A stretch of 45,262 bases of DNA, taken from assembly GCA_016871275.1 (NCBI GenBank), contig VFZG01000031.1, forward strand, positions 1-45,262, written 5' to 3'. The DNA is from Acidimicrobiia bacterium. GTDB taxonomy: Bacteria > Acidobacteriota > Vicinamibacteria > Vicinamibacterales > UBA2999. The position numbers were made by a program, and so were the translations under genes. Position 1 is the first letter of the stretch, and the number at the start of each line of letters is the position of its first letter. The notes under the pieces were generated by a model. The model did not search any database and was not told the origin of the DNA. It saw only the letters and a list, made by a program, of their open reading frames with translations. Shown here piece by piece: positions 21,726 to 31,868 of the stretch.

Positions 21726-22424
21726 TCACCCAATTGACAGGTTTCCCGTGTAAATGGCCATCCCGACCACGGCGTCGATGCCCAGCTTGTCGAGGGCATC
21801 GATTTCCTCGCGCGTGGTGATGCCGCCGGCGGCGGTGAGCTTTCGCTCCGTCGCCTTCGCCACCGCCGTGATCGCCGCCATGTCGGTGCCCTGCATCAGT
21901 CCTTCCTTGTCCACGTGGGTGTAGAGGAATTCCTCGCAGTAGCCCTCGAGCAGCTGCACCGCTTGCACCGCTGTCAGCGGCAGCCTGGTCTTCCAGCCAT
22001 GGATGCAGACGCGCCCGGCCCGCGAATCAACCGCGGCGATCAGCCGATGCATGCCCACCGTCGAGGCCAGCGCGCGGGCGAAGTCGTGGTCGATCATCTG
22101 TGCCAGATCGCCCTCGGGGGAGCGGCGGAACAGCCCCGAACCGGCGATGACCGCCTGCGCGCCGGCGGCGATCAGCTCCTCGGCGCGGCGCACGCTCCGC
22201 ACGCCGCCGCCGACGCGGCAGGGCAGCTTCGAGGCGATCTGCTTGACGAGCTCGTCGTTGCTGCCGCGCGACATCGCGGCATCGAGATCGATCAGCTGCA
22301 CTTTCGGAAACGTCGCAAACCTGGCGATCCAGCCGTTGAGATCGTCAGTGGCAAGGGCGAGCTTCTCGCCCTGCACGAGTTGAACGACGCGGCCACCCTG
22401 AAGATCAATCGAAGGTATCAACAT
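21726..22424 (-). CDS. hisA: HisA, phosphoribosylformimino-AICAR-P isomerase
   Basis: Catalyses the Amadori rearrangement of ProFAR to PRFAR, the fourth enzyme step of histidine synthesis (EC 5.3.1.16). A 232-residue TIM barrel, slightly short for the family. Catalytic Asp8-equivalent in MLIPSIDLQGG, second catalytic Asp in AAVDSRAGRV, phosphate loops CRVGGGVRS and TAAGGITTREE. Two bases separate it from the hisF stop. The C-terminus (LSIG) and stop codon lie in an 8-bp repeat (ATTGGGTG on the coding strand). It is the last his gene of the operon; the order hisF before hisA is the reverse of the common arrangement. Confidence 0.95.
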   Translation of the reverse strand: MLIPSIDLQGGRVVQLVQGEKLALATDDLNGWIARFATFPKVQLIDLDAAMSRGSNDELVKQIASKLPCRVGGGVRSVRRAEELIAAGAQAVIAGSGLFRRSPEGDLAQMIDHDFARALASTVGMHRLIAAVDSRAGRVCIHGWKTRLPLTAVQAVQLLEGYCEEFLYTHVDKEGLMQGTDMAAITAVAKATERKLTAAGGITTREEIDALDKLGIDAVVGMAIYTGNLSIG

Positions 22425-22426
22425 GA

Positions 22427-23197
22427 CTAAAGACGCACCGGTATTTGGCGCTGAGCAAGAAACGTCTTCAGTTGGCCGACGCTGTGTTCCTGGAAGTGGA
22501 AGATCGAGGCTGCCAGGGCGGCATCGGCGCGACCGGCTTCGAATATTTCGGCAAAGTGTTCGAACGATCCGGCGCCGCCGGAAGCGATCACCGGGACGTC
22601 GACAGCGTCCGACACGGCCGACGTCATCTCGCAGTCGAAACCGGCTTTCGTCCCATCGCGATCGATCGACGTCACCAGGATCTCGCCGGCGCCCCGCGCC
22701 GTGGCCTCACGCGCCCACTCGACGGCATCGCGGCTGACCGCCGTCGTGCCGCTGCGCGCATACACTGCAAAGCTGATGGTGTCCGGCTTCAGCCGGACCG
22801 TCTTCGCATCAATCGCGACCATCACGGCCTGGCTGCCGTATCGCCTCGCGAGAGTCGTGATCAGGTCGGGGTTGCTCAACGCGGCGGTGTTCACACTCAC
22901 CTTGTCTGCACCCGCCTCAATCGCCGCCGCGGCATCGTCTTCGCTGCGAATGCCGCCGCCGACCGTCAGCGGCAGGAAGATCTCCTGCGCGACGGTGCGG
23001 ATGGTGTTGGCGCGCGCCTGCCGGCCTTCGAGCGTCGCGGTGACATCCAGGATGACAATCTCGTCGATGCCCTCCACGTTGTAGCGCCGTGCCAGCGCCG
23101 CCGGATCGCCGGCCTCACGCAGTTCCTCGAAGTTGACGCCCTTGACGACCTTGCCGTCACGGACGTCAAGGCAGGCGATGATGCGCTTAGACAGCAC
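22427..23197 (-). CDS. hisF: HisF, imidazole glycerol phosphate synthase cyclase subunit
   Basis: With HisH, makes imidazole glycerol phosphate and AICAR from PRFAR (EC 4.3.2.10). A 256-residue TIM barrel with catalytic D11 (ACLDVRDGK) and D130 (VAIDAK), VGGGIRS, GAGEILVTSIDRDGT and IASGGAG. Residues 133-140 (TVRLKPDT) are an extra loop right after D130 and are encoded by a perfect palindrome (GTCCGGCT-TC-AGCCGGAC, 22781-22798), which looks like an in-frame insertion of a dispersed repeat. Overlaps the hisH 3' end by 11 bases. Confidence 0.95.
   Translation of the reverse strand: MLSKRIIACLDVRDGKVVKGVNFEELREAGDPAALARRYNVEGIDEIVILDVTATLEGRQARANTIRTVAQEIFLPLTVGGGIRSEDDAAAAIEAGADKVSVNTAALSNPDLITTLARRYGSQAVMVAIDAKTVRLKPDTISFAVYARSGTTAVSRDAVEWAREATARGAGEILVTSIDRDGTKAGFDCEMTSAVSDAVDVPVIASGGAGSFEHFAEIFEAGRADAALAASIFHFQEHSVGQLKTFLAQRQIPVRL
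22781..22798. repeat. Perfect palindrome inside hisF (REP-like)
   Basis: Eight-base arms GTCCGGCT and AGCCGGAC around TC. A related copy (CCGGCT-GA-AGCCGG) lies at 37376-37389 between genes. In hisF it encodes an extra surface loop. Confidence 0.65.
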
Positions 23198-23807
23198 TGA
23201 ACCAGTTCCTCAGAATACGCAGTCCCGTGTCGCCGGATTTCTCGGGATGGAACTGGACCGCCGACACATGACCGCGCTCGACGGCAGCACTGAACGGCAC
23301 GCCGTACTCACACACGGCGGCGGTCTCGGCGGTCACCGGCGCTGCGAACGAGTGCGTGAAGTAGACCTGTGAGTCGTTGATCACGCCATGCATCAGCCGT
23401 GTCCGTCTCGGCATCGAGAGGGCGTTCCAGCCAACGTGCGGCACTTTGAGACGGCTTGCCGGCTCACGGCCTTGTGGGCCTGGGCAAGCCAGCTTGAAAC
23501 ACCGTCCGCTGAAAATGCGCAAGCCGCCGCAATCGGGAGCTTCCTCGCTGCCCTCGAACAGCCACTGCAGGCCGACGCAAATCCCGAGCAACGGTGTGCC
23601 GCTGTCGATCCTGGCCTTGATTGCCGTCCGCCACTCGGGCGTGATGGCTTTCGTAGAGTCGAAGTGGCCGACGCCGGGCACGACCACGCCCCGTGCCCGC
23701 GACAGTTCGGCCGGAATCGTCGGCGTCCATACGTCGGCGCCGATGGCCGACAAGGCCTTGCGCACCGACGTCAGGTTGCCGGCGCCGTAGTCGATCAGCG
23801 CAATCAC
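23187..23807 (-). CDS. hisH: HisH, imidazole glycerol phosphate synthase glutaminase subunit
   Basis: Class I glutamine amidotransferase that supplies ammonia to HisF. 206 residues from GTG 23807, which overlaps the hisB stop as GTGA; a longer frame from 23861 is rejected because the family starts at [10 protein letters not shown]. Oxyanion-region motif [10 protein letters not shown], nucleophile Cys in [10 protein letters not shown], catalytic His and Glu in VQFHPEKSG. Canonical length. Sits between hisB and hisF, both overlapping, so translation is coupled and subunits are made together. Confidence 0.95.
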
Positions 23808-24391
23808 AACAGGCCCTTGGTGCTCGGCAGCGTGCGGGCCAGACGCGTGTCTTTCGAGCACGCCATGCGCAGCGCGCGTGCGAACGCCTTGAAGCAGGCT
23901 TCGATCTTGTGGTGGTTCGACCGGCCGTAGATCACCTTGAGGTGCACGTTGGCGCGCGCCGCCATGGCGAAACCGTCGAAGAAGTCGTGCACCAGCTCGG
24001 ATTGCAGATCGCCGACCTTGTCAACCGTGACCTTGGTGTCGATGACGGCGTGCGGGCGGCCGCTGAGATCGATTGCCGCCACCGCCAGCGTCTCGTCCAT
24101 CGGCATGACGAAGTAACCGGCGCGATTGATGCCGCGCTTGTTGCCGATCGCGGCCGCGACCGCCTCGCCGAGCGCGATGCCGGTGTCTTCGACGGTGTGA
24201 TGCTGATCCACGTCCAGGTCGCCGGCGGCCTTTACCTTCAAGTCAAAGCCGCCGTGCCGCGCGACCAGGTCGAGCATGTGATCGAGAAAGCGGATGCCGG
24301 TCTGGTTCGCGAAACGCCCCTTGCCGTCGAGCGCCAGCGTCACCGTGAGCTGCGTTTCCGCAGTCCGACGATTGATTACAGCTTTGCGCAC
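23804..24391 (-). CDS. hisB: HisB, imidazoleglycerol-phosphate dehydratase
   Basis: Dehydrates IGP to imidazole acetol phosphate (EC 4.2.1.19). 195 residues, the single-function form without a phosphatase domain. Metal-binding motifs [41 protein letters not shown] and [19 protein letters not shown] are intact and the end PSTKGLL is typical. GTG 24391 is the natural start (VRKAVINR); it overlaps hisC by 16 bases, while the longer frame to 24457 runs through hisC. No histidinol-phosphatase gene is seen in this window. Confidence 0.94.
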
Positions 24392-25449
24392 AACGCCTCC
24401 AGCGTGTCGCAGGCCTGGCGCGTGTGTTCGACCACGCCGGTTGTGAGCCGGAAGCATGTCGGCGTCGAGGGATCGTTCGTCCGGTCGCGGACGAACACGC
24501 CGTTGGCAATCATGCCGTCGGCAATGTCCTTCACGCGGCTGCCGCCGTCGATCAGCACGAAGTTTGCGGCGCTCTTCCAGTACTTCAAGCCGGCACGCTC
24601 GCAGGCGGCATACACCAGCTCTTTCGATTCCCTCGCCTGCGCGACGTACCAGGTCCGAAACGAGGGATCGGCAATGGCGGCCCGCAGCGCCGCGACCGCG
24701 ACAACGTTGAGGTTGAACAACGGCATGCAGCGCCGAATCGGCGCGAGAATCGCGGGCGAGGCCACCATCACGCCCACGCGGATGCCGGCCAGGCCGAAGG
24801 CCTTCGAGAACGTACGGCCGATCAGCACGTTTGGATAGGCGGAGGCCTGGTCGAGAAAATGTTCGCCCATGAAGTCGTGATACGCCTCGTCCACGAACAC
24901 CAGCGCGTGGCCGGCTTCGCGGGCAAGCTGGTGGATTGCGTTCTTCGGAATCGGCTGACCGCTCGGGTTGTTGGGATTGTTCACGTAGACGATGCGGGTA
25001 TTCGGCGTGATGGCGTTCAGCATGGCGTCGAGTGGGAAGGCATAGTTCTCTCCGGGCGGCACGGCCACCACGTGCGCGCCCAGCGAGTGGGCGCCGTGCA
25101 GGTACGGCTCGAAGGCCGGCTGTGCCACCAGGATCTCCGCGGCGCCGGTCGTCGTGGTCGCCGGCGCACCCAGTTCGACCAGCGCCTCGGGCGTGCGGCT
25201 GCCGAGATACGCGATCGACACCAGCAGGATGCCTTCATCCAGTCCGTTGGTCAGAACCAGGCGATCGGGATCGACGCCGAGAAACGCCGCAGTCTCCACG
25301 ACGGCGTGCGTGAAATCCGGATAGCTGGCCAGCGCGGGACCGTCGAAGGCGCGGACCGCTTCGACCACCTTCGGCGAACAGCCGCCGGTGTTCTCGTTGA
25401 GATGGAGCCTCAGGCCAGGGCCGAGATCGGGAACGCCTTGGATGATCAT
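24376..25449 (-). CDS. hisC: HisC, histidinol-phosphate aminotransferase
   Basis: PLP enzyme converting imidazole acetol phosphate to histidinol phosphate (EC 2.6.1.9). 357 residues. Substrate arm [14 protein letters not shown] at the N-terminus, [26 protein letters not shown] lysine in [15 protein letters not shown], and the C-terminal FRLTTG. It has an extra segment after [16 protein letters not shown] ([20 protein letters not shown]) that is longer than in many HisC proteins. ATG 25449 overlaps the hisD stop (ATGA). Confidence 0.94.
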
Positions 25450-26714
25450 AGGGTGCAGTTGGCAGTCGGCAGTCGGCAGTTGCCAGTTCGAATGTCAATC
25501 GAGCGCGCGTGTTGTTCGAGGCCCTCGGCCCTTGCCAGCGCCGTTATGGTCTTGCCAATTCGATTCAGTCCCCGCTTGGTGACGCGCTGGACCGAGATCA
25601 GCTTCACGAAGTCGGCGGCGTTCAGTCCGCCACGGTAGCGTGCGGCGCCGGCGGTGGGTAGTACGTGATTGGATCCGATTGCGTAGTCGCCGGCGACCTG
25701 CGCGGTCCAGGCGCCAATGAACACCGCCCCGGCATTCAATACGCGCCCGGCGATGGCTTCGCTTCCGGCGACGACGTGCTCTGAGGCCGCCTGATTCACC
25801 AGCGCGATCGCCTCCGCCTGGCTGCGGCACACGATGGCTCCGCCGTGGCTGTTGATGGATTGGCGCGCCGGGCCGGTCTCGGGCATCTGCCGTTCGACCT
25901 CATCGGCGACCCGCTCGGCGAGGCGTCGATTCGTCGTGATCAGGACCGCGCGCGCGTCGGGATCGTGTTCGGCCTGCGCCAGCAGGTCGGCGGCGATCCA
26001 GTTCGCGGGTCCCGAATTGGTCACAATCAGAATCTCGGTCGGTCCCGCGTAGAAGTCGATGCCGCAGTCCGCGGCGACGAGCGACTTTGCGGCCGACACC
26101 CAGCGATTGCCGGGCCCAACGATCTTGTCCACGCGCGGCACCGCGCCCGTGCCGTACGCCATTGCCGCAATCGCGTGAGCGCCGCCGATGCGGAACAGGC
26201 GATCGATGCCCGCCTCGAGCGCAGAGGCATACACAGCCGCATCCGGTCGCGGGCAACACACCACGATTTGGTCGACACCCGCGGCCCGGGCCGGAATGGC
26301 GGTCATCAACAGCGACGACGGCAGTGGATACCGGCCGGCCGGCACGTAGCAGCCGACCCGGGCCAGCGGCACCACCCGCTGTTCCACGGTGATGCCCGGC
26401 GCCACTTGATGGCGCCAGCCTCTTGGCACCTGCTTCTTCGATACGGAGCGAATGTGCCGCGCGGCTCCGGCAATCGCCCGCCTCACCGATGGCGGCAGCA
26501 CCGACGCCTCATGTTCCCAGCCGGCTCTCGGCACCTCCAGCGGTCCGGTGAGGCCATCGAGATCGCGCGCGTATCGTCTCAACGCCGCATCGCCGCCGCC
26601 CCGCACGCGCTCGACGATGGCGGCGGCGGCGCGCTCGGTCACGCGATCACGAATGCGGGTCGCGGCCAAGAGGGCGGTGACGGCCCGGCGATTGCTGGAC
26701 GGAACGACTCTCAC
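25446..26714 (-). CDS. hisD: HisD, histidinol dehydrogenase
   Basis: Zinc- and NAD-dependent last step of the pathway, histidinol to histidine (EC 1.1.1.23). 422 residues. VGCYVPAGRYPLPSSLLM, VDKIVGPGNRWV, AAKSLV, IDFYAGPTEILI, LLAQAEHDPDA, GAVFIG and SNHVLPTAGAARY are all present. The native protein appears to end near SIDIRT; the last twelve residues ([12 protein letters not shown]) are translated from a 7-bp intergenic tandem repeat. The start is GTG 26714, 16 bases after hisG, preceded by GATCAGGGATCAG repeat sequence. Confidence 0.94.
   Translation of the reverse strand: MRVVPSSNRRAVTALLAATRIRDRVTERAAAAIVERVRGGGDAALRRYARDLDGLTGPLEVPRAGWEHEASVLPPSVRRAIAGAARHIRSVSKKQVPRGWRHQVAPGITVEQRVVPLARVGCYVPAGRYPLPSSLLMTAIPARAAGVDQIVVCCPRPDAAVYASALEAGIDRLFRIGGAHAIAAMAYGTGAVPRVDKIVGPGNRWVSAAKSLVAADCGIDFYAGPTEILIVTNSGPANWIAADLLAQAEHDPDARAVLITTNRRLAERVADEVERQMPETGPARQSINSHGGAIVCRSQAEAIALVNQAASEHVVAGSEAIAGRVLNAGAVFIGAWTAQVAGDYAIGSNHVLPTAGAARYRGGLNAADFVKLISVQRVTKRGLNRIGKTITALARAEGLEQHARSIDIRTGNCRLPTANCTL
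25455..25489. repeat. 7-bp tandem repeat at the hisD-hisC junction, translated
   Basis: Units GCAGTTG, GCAGTCG, GCAGTCG, GCAGTTG, CCAGTTC on the plus strand. It is read as the C-terminal tail of HisD and lies just before the hisC start. Confidence 0.75.
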
Positions 26715-26730
26715 AACTGATCCCTGATCC

Positions 26731-27618
26731 TCACACCACTATCTTATTGAGCGGATACTCGACGATGCCCTGACCACCGGCCATCTTCAGCCGCGGAATC
26801 AGGTCGCGCGCCGTCTTCTCTTCGAGAATCGTATTGATCGCCACCCAGTCCGGATCGCTGAGCGACGACACCGTCGGTCTCTGCAACGCCGGCAGCAGCA
26901 CGATCAGGCGATCCAGATCCTGGCGGCGAGCGTTCAGCATCAGGCCAACGCGTCCCTGTGCTTCGATGGCCGCTTTCAACAGCAGCGCCAGGTTTTCGAT
27001 CTTGGTCTTCTTCCGCTCGTCCGCCATTGCCGCCTGGTTGGCGATCAGCTGCGTGTTCGACTCCATGATCGTTTCCAGGATCCGCAGCCGGTTGGCGCGA
27101 AGCGTCGAGCCGGTTTCGGTGGCCTCGACGATGGCGTCGGCCAGCACCGGCGGCTTGACTTCCGTGGCGCCCCACGAGAACTCCACGTCGACGTCCATGC
27201 CCTTGCTCGTGAAGTAGTGCCGCGTCACCCGCACCAGTTCGGTGGCGATGCGTTTGCCATTCAGGTCGGCCGCCGTCGTGAAGGGTGAGTCTTCCGGCGC
27301 AGCGAGCACCCATCGCACCTTGCCAAAACTCTGCTTGGCGTAAATCAAGTCGCAGACGCGCGCGAGCTTTGCCTGTTCCGGGTGGCCAATTTCGTGCTCG
27401 GCGATCCAATCCTGGCCGGTCAGGCCGGCGTCAAGCACGCCGTCGGCGACGTAGCGCGCCATCTCCTGGGCGCGGATCAGCATGCAGTCGATTTCGGGAT
27501 CGTCGATTGACGGGAAGTAAGACCGCGAGTCGACGCGCAGGATGTAGCCGGCGCGCTGGAACAACTGGACGGTGGACTCCTGCAGTGAGCCCTTGGGAAT
27601 ACCAAGCCGGAGTTTCAT
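26731..27618 (-). CDS. hisG: HisG, ATP phosphoribosyltransferase (long form)
   Basis: First and committed step, joining ATP and PRPP (EC 2.4.2.17). 295 residues, the long form: catalytic periplasmic-binding-like domain ([61 protein letters not shown]) plus the C-terminal ACT-like regulatory domain (about residues 215-295, [20 protein letters not shown] to [11 protein letters not shown]), which should confer feedback inhibition by histidine. Hence HisZ is not needed. ATG 27618 overlaps the hisI stop (ATGA); the frame upstream to 27648 lies within hisI. Confidence 0.95.
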
Positions 27619-27935
27619 TTGGACGTGGCCTCCAATGGGACGAAACACGACACGCGATTCAGGTGGCAGACCTTGCCGTCGCCCTCACGGCGAACCTTGA
27701 TCAGGACGGTGTCCTCATCGCAGTCGATCAGCACGCTCCGCACCAGCAGCCGGTTGCCGGACGTCTCCCCCTTCATCCACAGCTTCTGCCGCGTGCGGCT
27801 GAAGAAGGTGACATAGCCGGACTCACGCGTGGACCGCCACGCGTCCTGGTTCATGAAGCCGACCATCAGCACTTCGTTGCTGATCTCGTCCTGCACGACC
27901 GCCGGCACCAAACCGTCCAACTTTGAAAAATCCAT
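27615..27935 (-). CDS. hisI: HisI, phosphoribosyl-AMP cyclohydrolase
   Basis: Opens the purine ring of PR-AMP (EC 3.5.4.19). 106 residues, single-domain form without the HisE pyrophosphohydrolase. Zinc/magnesium site: [11 protein letters not shown], then [11 protein letters not shown], giving the three conserved Cys; [20 protein letters not shown] and [15 protein letters not shown] complete the family pattern. First structural gene of the operon, 54 bases after the attenuator hairpin. No hisE is seen in the operon, so PR-ATP hydrolysis must be encoded elsewhere. Confidence 0.95.
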
Positions 27936-27937
27936 AT

Positions 27938-27973
27938 CAGCTCTCGGCGTCTCAGCCCTCAGCCTTCAGCTCT
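27938..27973. repeat. 7-8-bp tandem repeat between the his attenuator and hisI
   Basis: Units CAGCTCT, CGGCGTCT, CAGCCCT, CAGCCTT, CAGCTCT on the plus strand. On the coding strand it reads as GAGCTGA-like units and provides the only purine-rich sequence before the hisI ATG. Confidence 0.7.
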
Positions 27974-27979
27974 CAACGA

Positions 27980-28014
27980 AAAAGCAAAAGGCCCGCCGGT
28001 TTCCCGGCGGGCCT
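27980..28014 (-). terminator. his attenuator: intrinsic terminator before hisI
   Basis: On the minus strand AGGCCCGCCGG (28014-28004) pairs perfectly with CCGGCGGGCCT (27999-27989) across a four-base loop, followed by TTTGCTTTTTCG. This is a strong rho-independent terminator placed after the leader peptide and before the first his gene. Confidence 0.9.
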
Positions 28015-28047
28015 CTCGCGTGAAATCGATCCTGAATGGTTGTTCGT

Positions 28048-28167
28048 CTACGCGCAGGCTCCTGCCGGGCCGTTCGGGGAACGGTGATGCTGGTTATGGT
28101 GCGCATGATGCACGAACGACATGACCCTTACAGGGTAGTCAACCCGGCGACTTGGAGTCAAATCCAT
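28048..28167 (-). CDS. hisL: Histidine-operon leader peptide
   Basis: A 39-codon frame from ATG 28167 with GAGGAGG nine bases upstream. It contains HHAHHNQHH, six His within nine residues (codons at 28110-28084), and ends at TAG 28048, 33 bases before the terminator hairpin. A shorter version from ATG 28122 (MSFVHHAHHNQHHR...) would be 24 residues. The location, the run of His codons and the terminator match classical peptide-leader attenuation: ribosome stalling at His codons should allow read-through into hisI. The name is given by analogy with the enterobacterial hisL; no sequence homology is claimed. Confidence 0.88.
   Translation of the reverse strand: MDLTPSRRVDYPVRVMSFVHHAHHNQHHRSPNGPAGACA
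28056..28068 (-). promoter_or_regulatory. his antiterminator arm (region 2 of the attenuator)
   Basis: CCGGCAGGAGCCT on the minus strand mimics the terminator's right arm CCGGCGGGCCT with one mismatch and a two-base bulge, so it can pair with the left arm (28014-28004) and block terminator formation. It lies just before the leader stop codon, where a ribosome finishing the peptide would cover it. A small hairpin CCGTTC-CCC-GAACGG (28084-28070) directly after the His codons could act as pause structure. Confidence 0.7.
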
Positions 28168-28199
28168 CGGGTTCAGCCTCCTCAGCATGGCACGCCCCG

Positions 28200-29798
28200 T
28201 CATTTCGCCAGCGGTTTCCGGGGAAGCCGCTCGCTGGTGTTGGCGGCATACCACGCAAAAACGGCGGCGACGGCCCCTTGCTGAATGACATCGTCCTTCT
28301 GCACGTGATCGTAGGTGTCCATGTTCGAGTGATGGGTGCGCGAGTTGTATTCGAGGCGCTCCTGGATGAACTGGAAGCCCGGCAGGCCGGCGTTGTCGAA
28401 CGAGCCATGATCGGTGGACGTGACCGAACGCGGGCTCACGCTCCTCCAGCCCAGGTCTTTCAAGGCCACGCCCCACTGTTCGAAACTCTTCATGGCGCCG
28501 GTGTTGTTCTGGCCCCAGATGCCGCGGATGCGGCCGGTGCCGTTGTCGAGATTGAAGTAGGCCTGCACGTTGGCGTGCGCGGGCTTCGGCGTGCTGGTTT
28601 TCGCATCCCAGTAGTGGCGTGCCACGTACTCGCGCGATCCGATCAGCCCCTGCTCCTCGGCCGCCCACAGCGCGACACGAATCGTGCGGCGTGGCTTCAG
28701 ACCCAGCTGCTGGATCACGCGCACCGCTTCGATCATCGCCGTGGAGCCGGTGGTGTTGTCGGTCGCGCCAGTCGCGTACGGGTAGGTGTCGAAGTGCGCG
28801 CCCAAGATCACCACCTGGTCGGCGAGATCGCTGCCGGGAATGTCCGCGATGATGTTGAAGGCGTGGCCCGCCGGATCGGTTTCAGGGTGGAACCTCGTCT
28901 GGATGTTCAGTTCCATGCGCACCGGCTGGCCGTGCTCGATGAGCCGGACCAGGCGGTTGTAATGTTCGACGGCCAGTGTGGCCGACGGCACCTGCTGCGG
29001 CGCCTTGGGATCGCGGCTGCCGCCGTTGCCTGGGAATATCGTGCCGCCATCGACGCGTTGCGTCTGCCACGACAGATCGCTCCCGCCCGCCGACATGTCG
29101 GTGTCGCTGCCACGATCGAGCACCGCCGCCACGCCTTCAGCGACCAGGAAGCGCTGTAGCAGCGCCGCAAACTGCTGCGGGGTCATTGGTGGGGCGGATG
29201 AGGCTGGTGAGGCGGGTGAGGCAGGTGACGCCGCAGGCTTTGGATCGGGCAGCTTCATCGCCTCCGCCCAGTCCGCCTCGGTCATCTCAAGCACGATGCG
29301 GCCCTGCAGCATGCGAACCGGCCGGGCGGCCTGGAGGATGACGATCTTCCCGGTGAGCTGGCCCTTGTACTTCGCCAGCTCCGCTTCGCTCGCCGCCTTC
29401 ACGTAGACCACGTCAGACGTGATGGTGCCCTTGGTCGACGGCGAGTACCACCGCGGCATGCCGATCAGCGGCGCCGCGTTCGGTGTCAGCAGGTGCGCCG
29501 AGAAGCGATCGATCGACCAGCCCTGGCCGAACGGGAAGCGCTCGATGTGAATGTTCGCGAGCCCCCACTCGGCGAACTTCTTCATCACCCAGTCGGCGCC
29601 GGCCTGGTAGCCCGGCGTGCCGGTGGCGCGCGGCCCAATGGCTTCGGACAGCCACCAATGCGTCTCCATGGCCTGCGAGTTGGTGATCGCCTCGCCGCGA
29701 ATCCTGGCAATGGTGGCCTGGTCGACGCCCGGCACTTGCGCGCCGAGCGTCGCGGCGATGAACAGCAGAGCGATTACTGCAAGACCCGATCGTTTCAT
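28200..29798 (-). CDS. M28 family metallopeptidase, secreted
   Basis: A 532-residue exported zinc peptidase. Signal peptide MKRSGLAVIALLFIAATLGA, then a region containing a protease-associated-like insert (residues ~120-290). The M28 domain has GAHFDTYPYATGATDN (first His and bridging Asp), WAAEEQGLIGSREY (Glu pair), NLDNGTGRIRGIW and the last His in NSRTHHSNMDTYDHV. Probable aminopeptidase or carboxypeptidase on extracellular peptides. A low-complexity stretch ASPASPASPASSAPP (about residue 190-205) is encoded by a short tandem repeat. It lies 21 bases after the S9 peptidase gene; the his leader begins within 35 bases of its stop. Confidence 0.93.
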   Translation of the reverse strand: MKRSGLAVIALLFIAATLGAQVPGVDQATIARIRGEAITNSQAMETHWWLSEAIGPRATGTPGYQAGADWVMKKFAEWGLANIHIERFPFGQGWSIDRFSAHLLTPNAAPLIGMPRWYSPSTKGTITSDVVYVKAASEAELAKYKGQLTGKIVILQAARPVRMLQGRIVLEMTEADWAEAMKLPDPKPAASPASPASPASSAPPMTPQQFAALLQRFLVAEGVAAVLDRGSDTDMSAGGSDLSWQTQRVDGGTIFPGNGGSRDPKAPQQVPSATLAVEHYNRLVRLIEHGQPVRMELNIQTRFHPETDPAGHAFNIIADIPGSDLADQVVILGAHFDTYPYATGATDNTTGSTAMIEAVRVIQQLGLKPRRTIRVALWAAEEQGLIGSREYVARHYWDAKTSTPKPAHANVQAYFNLDNGTGRIRGIWGQNNTGAMKSFEQWGVALKDLGWRSVSPRSVTSTDHGSFDNAGLPGFQFIQERLEYNSRTHHSNMDTYDHVQKDDVIQQGAVAAVFAWYAANTSERLPRKPLAK

Positions 29799-29819: not shown

Positions 29820-31868
29820 TTACTCCTGCCGCTGAGCGGCGGTTGTGGTCGCCGGCGCGCCGCGCTTGTACTTGTCGAACCAGTAGCGCAGGTACAACTG
29901 CGTGCGCGCGAAGTTCGACGGCGTGCTGGTGGTGCCGTGCGCCTCGTTGTTGAAGCGGATCATCGCGGTCGGCACCTTGAGGAGTTTCAACGCGCTATAG
30001 AACTGCTCGGTCTGCGGCATCGGCGTGCGCAGATCGTTCACACCGGTCATCAACATCGTCGGCGTCTTGACGTTGCCCACGTAGCTGAGCGGCGAGCGCT
30101 TGAAGTGCTCGGACGGATCGTCCCACGGCAGTTTCGCGAAGTTGTGGTACCACCCGGCGCCGTCGGTGGTGCCGACGAAGCTCACCCAGTCAATCACCGG
30201 GCAGTTGGCAGATGCCGCCGCGAAGCGGTTGGTCTTGCCGACCGTCCACGCCGTCAGCACGCCGCCGCCGCTGCACCCGGTGACGAACATGTTGCGCTCG
30301 TCGACGAAGCCCTTCTTCAGCAGCTCGTCGACGCCCGCCATCAGGTCGTCGTAGTCCTGGCTGGGATACGCGTTGTTGATCTTGTTGCCGAACGCGCTGC
30401 CGTAGCCCGTGCTGCCGCGCGGATTGGTGTAGAGGATGACGTAGCCGTTGGCGGCCATCTCCTGCCATCCATAGTTGAACCCGACGCCGTACATGCTGTG
30501 CGGGCCGCCGTGGATGTGCAGCTGCATGGGGTACTTCTTGGTCGGATCGAAATCGGGCGGCGTGATGTACCAGCCCTGAATCTTCAGCCCGTCGACCGAC
30601 GTGTACCACATCTCCTTCACGTCACCGAGCTTCTTGCCCTTGAGAATGTCCTCGTTGACGGCCGTCAGCTGGCGGACCTGCGCCGGGCTGGCGACGTCGT
30701 AGGTGACGATGTCGGGCGGCGTCTGGAACGACGTCAGCACGCCGACCGCCGTGCCGGTCTTCGACACGCTGGTGGTCGTCAGCAGGTGCGTGCCCTTGGT
30801 CACCGGCTGCACGACATCAGCGCGCGTTCCCGCCATCGGCAGCACGTAGAAGTTCTGCACGCCGGCATCCTGCGCCGTGAAGTAGACGCCGTTGCCGTCG
30901 GACTTCCACTGGATGTTCTGCGGCGAGCGATCCCAGTTGCCGGACACCAGCCGGTGATCGGTGCCGTCGATGTTCATGACGTACAGCTTGCTGTCGGTCC
31001 AGGTGTTCCGCGATGCGTCAAGGCCGGTGTAGGCGACCAGCTTGCCGTCCGGCGATACGCGCGGGTTGTTGTCCGGACCCTTGCGGCTCGTCAGCTGCTT
31101 GATGGCGCCGGTATCGACGCTGACGGAGTAGATCTCCGATTCACGGAACGCGTATTCGGCGTCCGGAATGCGAAGCGAGGTGAACAGGATCTGCCTGCCG
31201 TCGGGCGTGAACTCGATGCCGTTGTGATCCCAGTCGCCGTTGGTCAGCTGGCGCGGCGTGCCGCCGGTGGCCGGCACCGTGAACAGGTGCCGATAACCAT
31301 CGTCGTTGAAGCCCTGACCGTCCTGGCGATAGTCGAGGCGCTCGACGATGCGCGGCGTCTCGACCCATTTGGCGCCTTCGGGCCGATCGGGCATTCGGAT
31401 CGACCAGACGTTCTTCTTTTCGACCTTCATGGCGAAGGCGATCGACTGGCCGTCCGGCGACCAGGTGACGTTACCCGGCCCCTCGGTGACGCGCGTGACC
31501 TGCGAGGTGGCGCCCTCGGCGTCCATGTAGCGCACGAAAATCTGCGAGCCGCGCGGTTCGCCCTGCGCGGTGTAGAGGATGCGATCGCCGCTCGGCGACC
31601 AGCGCGCGTTGCTGCCGCGCACCAGGAAGCGGTTCTTGCTGCCGTCCGCGTTCATCACCCACAGCGATGACTCGCGCTTGTCGTTGATCTTGTCGAGCCA
31701 GGTTCGCGTGTAGATGATTTGCGCCCCGTCGGGCGACAGCTGCGGATCCGCGACCGTTTCATATTCCCAGTAGAGATCGAGAGTCAGCCGATCGGCGGTT
31801 GCCGTGTTCTGGGCAGCCAGGACGGCGGGCAACGACGCCAGGGCAAGTGCAACGAGGATGCGACGCAT
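29820..31868 (-). CDS. S9 family peptidase (prolyl oligopeptidase type), secreted
   Basis: A 682-residue exported serine peptidase. Signal peptide MRRILVALALASLPAVLA. Residues ~30-400 form a WD40-like/TolB-like propeller with SPDG repeats (LSPDGAQIIYTRTW, WSPDGQSIAF, FTPDGRQILF, VSPDGKLVAY). The C-terminal alpha/beta hydrolase holds HIHGGPHSMYG, the nucleophile in TGCSGGG, the acid Asp in GVNDLRTPM and the His in NEAHGTT. Expected to cleave short peptides, as dipeptidyl or acylaminoacyl peptidase. GGAGGAAG precedes the ATG. First gene of the transcript that continues into the M28 peptidase. Confidence 0.94.
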   Translation of the reverse strand: MRRILVALALASLPAVLAAQNTATADRLTLDLYWEYETVADPQLSPDGAQIIYTRTWLDKINDKRESSLWVMNADGSKNRFLVRGSNARWSPSGDRILYTAQGEPRGSQIFVRYMDAEGATSQVTRVTEGPGNVTWSPDGQSIAFAMKVEKKNVWSIRMPDRPEGAKWVETPRIVERLDYRQDGQGFNDDGYRHLFTVPATGGTPRQLTNGDWDHNGIEFTPDGRQILFTSLRIPDAEYAFRESEIYSVSVDTGAIKQLTSRKGPDNNPRVSPDGKLVAYTGLDASRNTWTDSKLYVMNIDGTDHRLVSGNWDRSPQNIQWKSDGNGVYFTAQDAGVQNFYVLPMAGTRADVVQPVTKGTHLLTTTSVSKTGTAVGVLTSFQTPPDIVTYDVASPAQVRQLTAVNEDILKGKKLGDVKEMWYTSVDGLKIQGWYITPPDFDPTKKYPMQLHIHGGPHSMYGVGFNYGWQEMAANGYVILYTNPRGSTGYGSAFGNKINNAYPSQDYDDLMAGVDELLKKGFVDERNMFVTGCSGGGVLTAWTVGKTNRFAAASANCPVIDWVSFVGTTDGAGWYHNFAKLPWDDPSEHFKRSPLSYVGNVKTPTMLMTGVNDLRTPMPQTEQFYSALKLLKVPTAMIRFNNEAHGTTSTPSNFARTQLYLRYWFDKYKRGAPATTTAAQRQE

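Follow-up and report, generated by a model that had tools for sequence, protein, structure and literature searches.

The hisI-G-D-C-B-H-F-A operon of contig VFZG01000031.1 is very probably controlled by a ribosome-mediated, histidine-sensing transcription attenuator, with a leader mRNA that appears to be almost leaderless. This reading of the sequence rests on the anatomy of the leader, its conservation, the covariation of its helices and the complementarity of its competing strands. A 1-2-3-4-type his attenuator in an acidobacterium had been proposed in a first-pass annotation of the window (the whole stretch of 45,262 nucleotides that was analysed), and conservation and covariation support it strongly.

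On the minus strand, the gap between the stop of an M28 peptidase gene at 28200 and the hisI ATG at 27935 contains, in the 5'-3' order, a His-rich ORF of 24 codons, 33 bases, a GC hairpin, a T-rich tract and hisI (Table 1). The six His codons within nine, and the distance of 33 bases between the leader stop and a perfect 11-bp GC hairpin with its T-rich tract, both claimed in the first-pass annotation, were confirmed in the sequence. The hisI start lies 53 bases past the end of the hairpin. The operon genes are all on the same strand; hisC, hisH and the hisF/hisA split were named from operon context, Pfam giving only the aminotransferase, GATase and His_biosynth families. Upstream, the operon is adjoined on the same strand by the M28-type peptidase (28200-29798, Pfam), itself preceded on that strand by a prolyl-oligopeptidase-like protein (29820-31868, named by eye).

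Table 1. Features of the his operon and its leader region, in coordinates of the window
Feature	Coordinates	Strand	Basis
Predicted -35 hexamer TTGACT, 18-nt spacer to the -10	28156..28161	-	Sequence; comparison of leaders
Predicted -10 hexamer TACCCT, 9 nt ahead of the leader ATG	28132..28137	-	TAnnnT conserved in 97/103 leaders
Leader peptide gene, 24 aa MSFVHHAHHNQHHRSPNGPAGACA and stop TAG (28050-28048)	28048..28122	-	Sequence; His-rich leader in 41/41 family genomes with hisI
Sensor, six His codons in nine, CATCATGCGCACCATAACCAGCATCAC	28084..28110	-	Sequence; enriched relative to shuffles
Region 1, ATGCGCA in His-Ala-His codons; partner TGCGCGT 28056-28050	28100..28106	-	Window fold; complementarity in 41 sequences
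Small hairpin CCGTTC-CCC-GAACGG immediately 3' of the His run; putative role in pausing	28070..28084	-	Family comparison
Region 2 CCGGCAGGAGCCTGCGCGT, switch strand pairing with region 1 or region 3	28050..28068	-	Folds, complementarity
Region 3 ACGCGAGAGGCCCGCCGG, contains terminator left arm 28014-28004	28004..28021	-	Folds, comparison
Region 4, terminator right arm CCGGCGGGCCT	27989..27999	-	Sequence, covariation
T-rich tract TTTTGCTTTTT, one-base overlap with the last stem base	27979..27989	-	Sequence
hisI (phosphoribosyl-AMP cyclohydrolase), first gene of the operon	27615..27935	-	Pfam PF01502 PRA-CH, E 2.8e-29
hisG, hisD, hisC, hisB, hisH, hisF, hisA, remaining operon	21726..27624	-	Pfam and operon context

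The His-rich leader upstream of hisI

HisI was found in 41 of the 43 genomes of the family, and each of the 41 has a His-rich ORF and a GC hairpin upstream of hisI. Beyond the phylum, the search for the leader consisted of a scan of named contigs by HisI, from which the best 80 of at least 584 hisI loci were taken, most of them titled Acidobacteria or Vicinamibacterales/Vicinamibacteria. Among these best 80, 35 repeat the family (one, L054, titled Vicinamibacterales) and 45 are other loci. When judged by eye, counting 3 or more His, a leader with 3 to 8 His is present at 40 of these 45. At four (L068, L069, L070 and L112) no convincing leader was found upstream of hisI, which suggests a probable loss, and one (L104) is truncated by the end of the contig. 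In the HisG tree, L069 and L070 group as sisters. The same hisI type and leader are carried by MAGs titled Cyanobacteria or Acidimicrobiia (L042, L050, L077, L083), titles that are probably wrong, since three of these loci repeat those of family f1.

A short leader ORF rich in codons for the end product, as an attenuator requires, was sought with a fixed rule: an ORF no longer than 60 codons, located in the 400 nt upstream of hisI and having four His or more in some stretch of ten codons. It was satisfied at 41/41 family loci compared with 11/820 dinucleotide shuffles, and at 36/45 of the other loci from the best 80 compared with 16/900, that is, at 77/86 hisI-selected loci compared with 27/1720. 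With the addition of phylum loci selected by a covariance model, R1, built on the family, the count reached 107/116 compared with 30/2320, a figure that includes 30 pre-selected loci, as 10 R1 loci without his genes had been left out beforehand. Thirteen of the 116 loci failed an automatic rule for leader plus terminator and were excluded from the promoter and 2:3 pairing counts given below, most of them having a His-rich ORF (L040, L048, L068, L069, L070, L075, L092, L098, L100, L104, L109, L167 and L183). L112 passed this rule despite the judgement by eye.

The gene upstream changes while the leader stays with hisI: the M28 peptidase was found at 12 family loci but at no locus among the other 45 named ones from the best 80. 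The idea that the hairpin merely terminates the peptidase gene, the His-rich ORF being incidental, would agree with its position between the peptidase stop and hisI, and with the presence of a peptidase close to hisI (within about 1.5 kb at 10 of 30 family loci, the 12 being reached with 3-kb flanks). It is exceedingly improbable in the face of the predicted promoter hexamers that separate the peptidase from the hairpin, of the leaders present without a peptidase at the other family loci and at the 40 of 45 further loci, and of the His enrichment over shuffles.

Start codon and predicted promoter

Translation of the leader had been assigned in the first-pass annotation to an upstream ATG at 28167, which is accompanied by GAGGAGG. 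The promoter hexamers are predicted downstream of this ATG, and only 3/39 family leaders have an upstream in-frame ATG with Shine-Dalgarno-like letters, at three different distances. The ATG at 28122-28120, the one that accompanies the conserved -10 box, is preferred instead, and the translated leader most likely begins at 28122.

The window has the arrangement TTGACT-N18-TACCCT-N9-ATG(28122). In 97/103 leaders, compared with about 10% of shuffles, a TAnnnT box precedes an in-frame start that lies ahead of the His run, its end being 6-13 nt from that start; the control figure is somewhat low, as any in-frame start before the His run was allowed in the real sequences and one in the shuffles. 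The spacing is 9 or 10 nt in 73 of the 97 leaders and 6-13 nt in all of them, which implies a predicted 5' UTR of a few bases at most. At a spacing of 16-19 from the -10 box, TTGACA is present in 43 of the 97 boxed leaders and 4 or 5 matches to it in 33 more, giving at least four matches out of six in 76/97 (counts without a shuffle control). A scan with the generic sigma-70 consensus listed no promoter here, and the hexamers emerged only through the comparison of leaders.

Shine-Dalgarno-like letters before the box-associated start are at background level, with 6/97 compared with 7.5% in the control. Since the TAnnnT box is close to the second ATG in 97/103 leaders and Shine-Dalgarno letters are not enriched, the mRNA translated into the leader peptide is probably almost leaderless. 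Transcription is predicted to start at about 28125-28122, within a few bases of the leader AUG.

Terminator and competing RNA pairings

Between the leader ORF and the first structural gene, where an attenuator has its intrinsic terminator, a perfect 11-bp hairpin, AGGCCCGCCGG-GAAA-CCGGCGGGCCT (28014-27989, minus strand), runs into the T-rich tract. With flanking pairs, the stem amounts to -29.8 kcal/mol. The hairpin by itself is unremarkable in this DNA, with one terminator-like site found for 0.6 expected. According to an automatic rule, a strong hairpin with a T-rich tail is present at 103/116 loci, with median ΔG of -20.6 to -23.3 kcal/mol depending on the set. Regions 3 and 4 covary: at one position of the stem, 23 of the 41 family sequences have C-G and 17 have the reverse, G-C.

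The T tract is missing after the hairpin at four loci (L048, L075, L092 and L109) that retain the His leader and the hairpin arms; termination there may be lost or may proceed by another route. Such loci would speak for a control of hisI through the leader by Rho or by translation instead of intrinsic termination. Such a control is very unlikely, given the strong hairpin and T-rich tail of the window and most relatives and the distance at which hisI starts past the hairpin.

A small hairpin of at least 5 bp follows the His run in 36/41 family leaders, with a mean stem of 5.3 compared with 3.2 in shuffles, and occurs in different members as CCGTTC/GAACGG, CCGCTC/GAGCGG, ACCATT/AATGGT, CGGCC/GGCCG or GGCGGC/GCCGCC. 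A formal covariation count was made on 15 of the 41 family sequences, selected for one type of small hairpin. Over the terminator and the small hairpin in these 15 sequences, 97.7% of cells are paired compared with 95.7 in shuffles, and there are 8 double changes compared with 2.8. The covariation score of both helices is 0.180 compared with 0.131, a value attained by none of 500 shuffles, and versions of the helices slid along the alignment score 0.017-0.119, all below the real one. One of the five covariation measures, the number of further pair types, was not above shuffles in the 15 sequences (9 compared with 9.1). The first-pass annotation had asked for conserved His codons and covarying arms in an alignment of hisI upstream regions from relatives; the His run is conserved and the hairpins do covary.

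Region 2 can pair with the left arm of the terminator, as had been noticed at the outset, and this was borne out by the folds and by complementarity above shuffles. The test was performed with RNA up to a ribosome stalled in the middle of the His run removed and region 4 not yet made. The left arm then pairs with upstream RNA to 0.79, 0.78 and 0.73 in 40 family, 35 order and 28 phylum sequences, respectively, compared with 0.52, 0.54 and 0.48 after shuffling of the upstream part, with mean energy z of -1.3, -1.7 and -1.8. In the window, the fold of the 2:3 state totals -32.4 kcal/mol, the small hairpin included, to be set beside the -29.8 kcal/mol of the terminator stem with its flanking pairs. 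In several members (L013, L014, L015, L026 and L038) the 2:3 pairing is no better than in shuffles. The case is also weakened by the small gain in stability, -22.1 versus -20.7 kcal/mol (mean rank 14/41), when region 2 is paired with its own region 3 instead of those of others.

Beyond the scheme of the first-pass annotation, region 2 has a second candidate partner, the His-Ala-His codons. Between the His-Ala/Val-His codons and the end of region 2, 7.15 of 9 positions are pairable on average in the 41 sequences, compared with 5.68 in shuffles (largest 5.98) and 6.98 with swapped partners (largest 7.10 of 200), and U-A replaces C-G at one position in six members. The leader thus contains an antiterminator that uses the left arm of the terminator and is exclusive of it, as well as a protector pairing, with complementarity above shuffles and a weak cognate preference. 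As the sequences are related, the shuffle scores overstate independence. RNAalifold applied to the 41-sequence alignment recovered only the terminator and four of the 1:2 pairs, since region 2 of genus g1 is shifted by two bases relative to the other members; the 1:2 pairing and the small hairpin were therefore counted in each sequence.

Across the family, region 2 retains the bases CGGCAGGACTGCGCG or close variants of them, yet their translation is PAGLRA or RQDCAR depending on the member, and the frames and lengths of the C-terminal part of the peptide vary among relatives while the nucleotides persist. The different reading frames over kept bases indicate that the RNA, rather than the peptide, is conserved. 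His-rich peptides can bind metals, and a peptide with a function of its own, for instance as a small metal-binding protein, with the RNA structure being secondary, could be imagined on this ground. The varying C-termini over constant nucleotides, the location of the peptide before his genes and its absence at the 10 of 40 inspected R1 matches that have no his gene make this hardly credible.

The start site, stalling, termination and histidine response of the attenuator are deduced from these features, and the following course of events is proposed. RNA polymerase would start a few bases before the ATG at 28122 and the ribosome would load at the 5' AUG. With ample His-tRNA, the ribosome would translate all six His codons, reach the stop at 28048 and lie over much of region 2, region 3 would pair with region 4, and transcription would end before hisI. 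With His-tRNA in short supply, the ribosome would stall in the His run, masking region 1 and freeing region 2, which would pair with region 3 before region 4 is made; no terminator would form and the operon would be transcribed. If the leader were not translated, region 1 would hold region 2 and the terminator would form. Against this scheme, a ribosome bound at the stop would cover on average only 43%, 38% and 20% of the pairing bases of region 2 in the family, order and phylum sets, respectively (71% in the window). The terminator is present in the predicted fold without translation in 95/103 leaders.

Distribution and relation to known systems

At a distance from the family, the covariance model R1 mainly recognises the terminator. 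Within the class it matches (E<=0.01) 120/193 genomes, every one of them from the order of the window, while HisI is found in 154/193; placement before hisI was checked for part of these matches, and some, such as those of G101, G140 and G141, lie on other contigs than HisI. One genome (G131) has an R1 match without a HisI match, and in families f16-f19 of the class there are members with HisI but without an R1 match. In the phylum sample, R1 matches 89/396 genomes, 34 in the order and 55 outside. Forty matches, mostly better-scoring, of the 55 matched genomes outside the order were inspected: 30 combine a His-rich leader with a closely following hisI or hisG, and 10 have neither a his gene nor a His-rich peptide.

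In scans independent of R1, a His-rich ORF was found at 12 of the 30 loci listed by HisG family, the window's own included (HisG in 35/60 genomes), and at 3 of the 30 loci listed by HisI family in the phylum sample, of which L204 is not a leader (HisI in 72/119 genomes). In the lineages covered by these scans, hisI probably often lies away from the place that a leader would occupy. By the R1 matches together with these scans, the leader is common in the order of the window and in a second large family, f26, is absent from many other lineages, and is not universal in the phylum. Family f26 probably belongs to the Terriglobia, judging from how its tree neighbours L113 and L120 are titled.

In a HisG tree (FastTree, 84 sequences), a single clade holds most of the leader-bearing operons; other leaders sit on remote branches (L158/L166/L170/L179/L253, L247/L251 and L225). 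In family f34 (L158, L166 and L170), whose hisG is about 34% identical to that of the window, this gene is preceded by a tandem of two dissimilar His-rich leader ORFs. Each ORF has a hairpin and a T-rich tract of its own behind it, which makes the pair a possible double attenuator. L247 and L251, on their distant HisG branch, have short ORFs ending in His runs (RHHHRHHHLV and RTHHHHHHVM) about 1.1-1.2 kb upstream of the HisG match, with GC-rich inverted repeats after them, seen by eye; these ORFs may have a separate origin. Upstream of trpE in 9 genomes of the genus, only two-Trp ORFs without a -10 box were found, judged by eye not to be leaders, and no such leader was found upstream of the best ilvB-like gene at 8 loci, this gene being picked as the best TPP-enzyme match, which may not be first in its operon.

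We consider it an evenly balanced proposition that the his attenuator of Acidobacteriota is a distinct one, leaderless in that ribosomes load at the RNA 5' end, old and widely kept on operons of the hisI-hisG type, that it arose apart from the proteobacterial His_leader, and that the phylum saw more than one origin or recruitment of the principle, in hisI-first operons, in tandem copies before a divergent hisG and in further hisG lineages. According to a 2010 survey, hardly any of the predicted acidobacterial attenuators was associated with a function (PMC2965389). A conserved amino-acid-specific attenuator is a concrete prediction of regulation for many uncultured genomes, and its leader is a candidate new RNA family for annotation. 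It would also offer a natural system for studying ribosome–polymerase coupling under leaderless initiation without an evident Shine-Dalgarno site.

The comparison with the Rfam His_leader model that the first-pass annotation called for was run, and RF00514 gives no match to the window, even with the threshold at E 10. At gathering scores, the whole window has no Rfam match, T-box included. At E<=10, ten weak matches were obtained in 27900-28250; the best (E 0.032) is to a plasmid antisense RNA, and neither His_leader nor T-box is among them. Above its gathering cut-off of 49 bits, RF00514 matches 0/60 phylum genomes and 1/14 control genomes, presumably E. coli; at E<=0.1, sub-cut-off matches occur in 8/60 phylum genomes, one of them overlapping the His leader of f34 (G232, 25.3 bits, E 0.096). 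A divergent member of the proteobacterial His_leader family, inherited or transferred, would share the logic and the amino acid sensed and could account for the f34 match, but the failure of RF00514 on the window and on all 60 phylum genomes, when a control passes, leaves such kinship only a slim chance. In view of the weak f34 match, the independent origin that had been suggested is plausible at most. T-boxes, which read tRNA without a peptide, are a further route to control. The likeness of His T-box riboswitches to the present leader is the histidine-dependent control of his genes (PMC9413887).

The enterobacterial hisL (RF00514), as described in PMC9413887, has in common with the present leader the His codons, the competing 1:2, 2:3 and 3:4 pairings and the intrinsic terminator before the his operon. 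Unlike hisL, the leader here precedes an operon that starts with hisI, is unmatched by the model, and has its start about 9-10 nt from the -10 box with no enrichment of Shine-Dalgarno letters. His attenuators have been predicted in three lineages of Firmicutes, namely the Bacillus cereus group, Peptostreptococcaceae with Lutispora, and Erysipelotrichales, where RF00514 is likewise stated to have found nothing (PMC9413887). Likened by their description there, they share a His-rich leader peptide with a terminator and antiterminator before his operons, and differ by three to five His codons in a row and by their phylum (PMC9413887). For Actinobacteria, PMC1262725 reports no conserved RNA structures before his operons. 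According to the account in PMC4833913, Lopatovskaya et al. 2010 described His attenuators in gamma-proteobacteria, Bacillus and C. difficile, Acidobacteria not being named in that account. The principle is known in Proteobacteria and Firmicutes; the literature search found no description for Acidobacteriota, with Lopatovskaya et al. 2010 as a possible place for an earlier one.

In three Acidobacteria genomes, the predicted share of leaderless genes averaged 13.3% (PMC3160421). Leaderless leader peptides have been described for trpL of Sinorhizobium meliloti (PMC7298713) and for trpL1, leuL and ilvL of Streptomyces lividans (PMC8079986). In these two reports, as in the prediction made here, the leader ORF opens at the very 5' end of the RNA or right beside it. 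They concern other amino acids, in Proteobacteria and Actinobacteria, and their 5' ends were mapped or obtained by RNA-seq, whereas that of the acidobacterial his leader is predicted.
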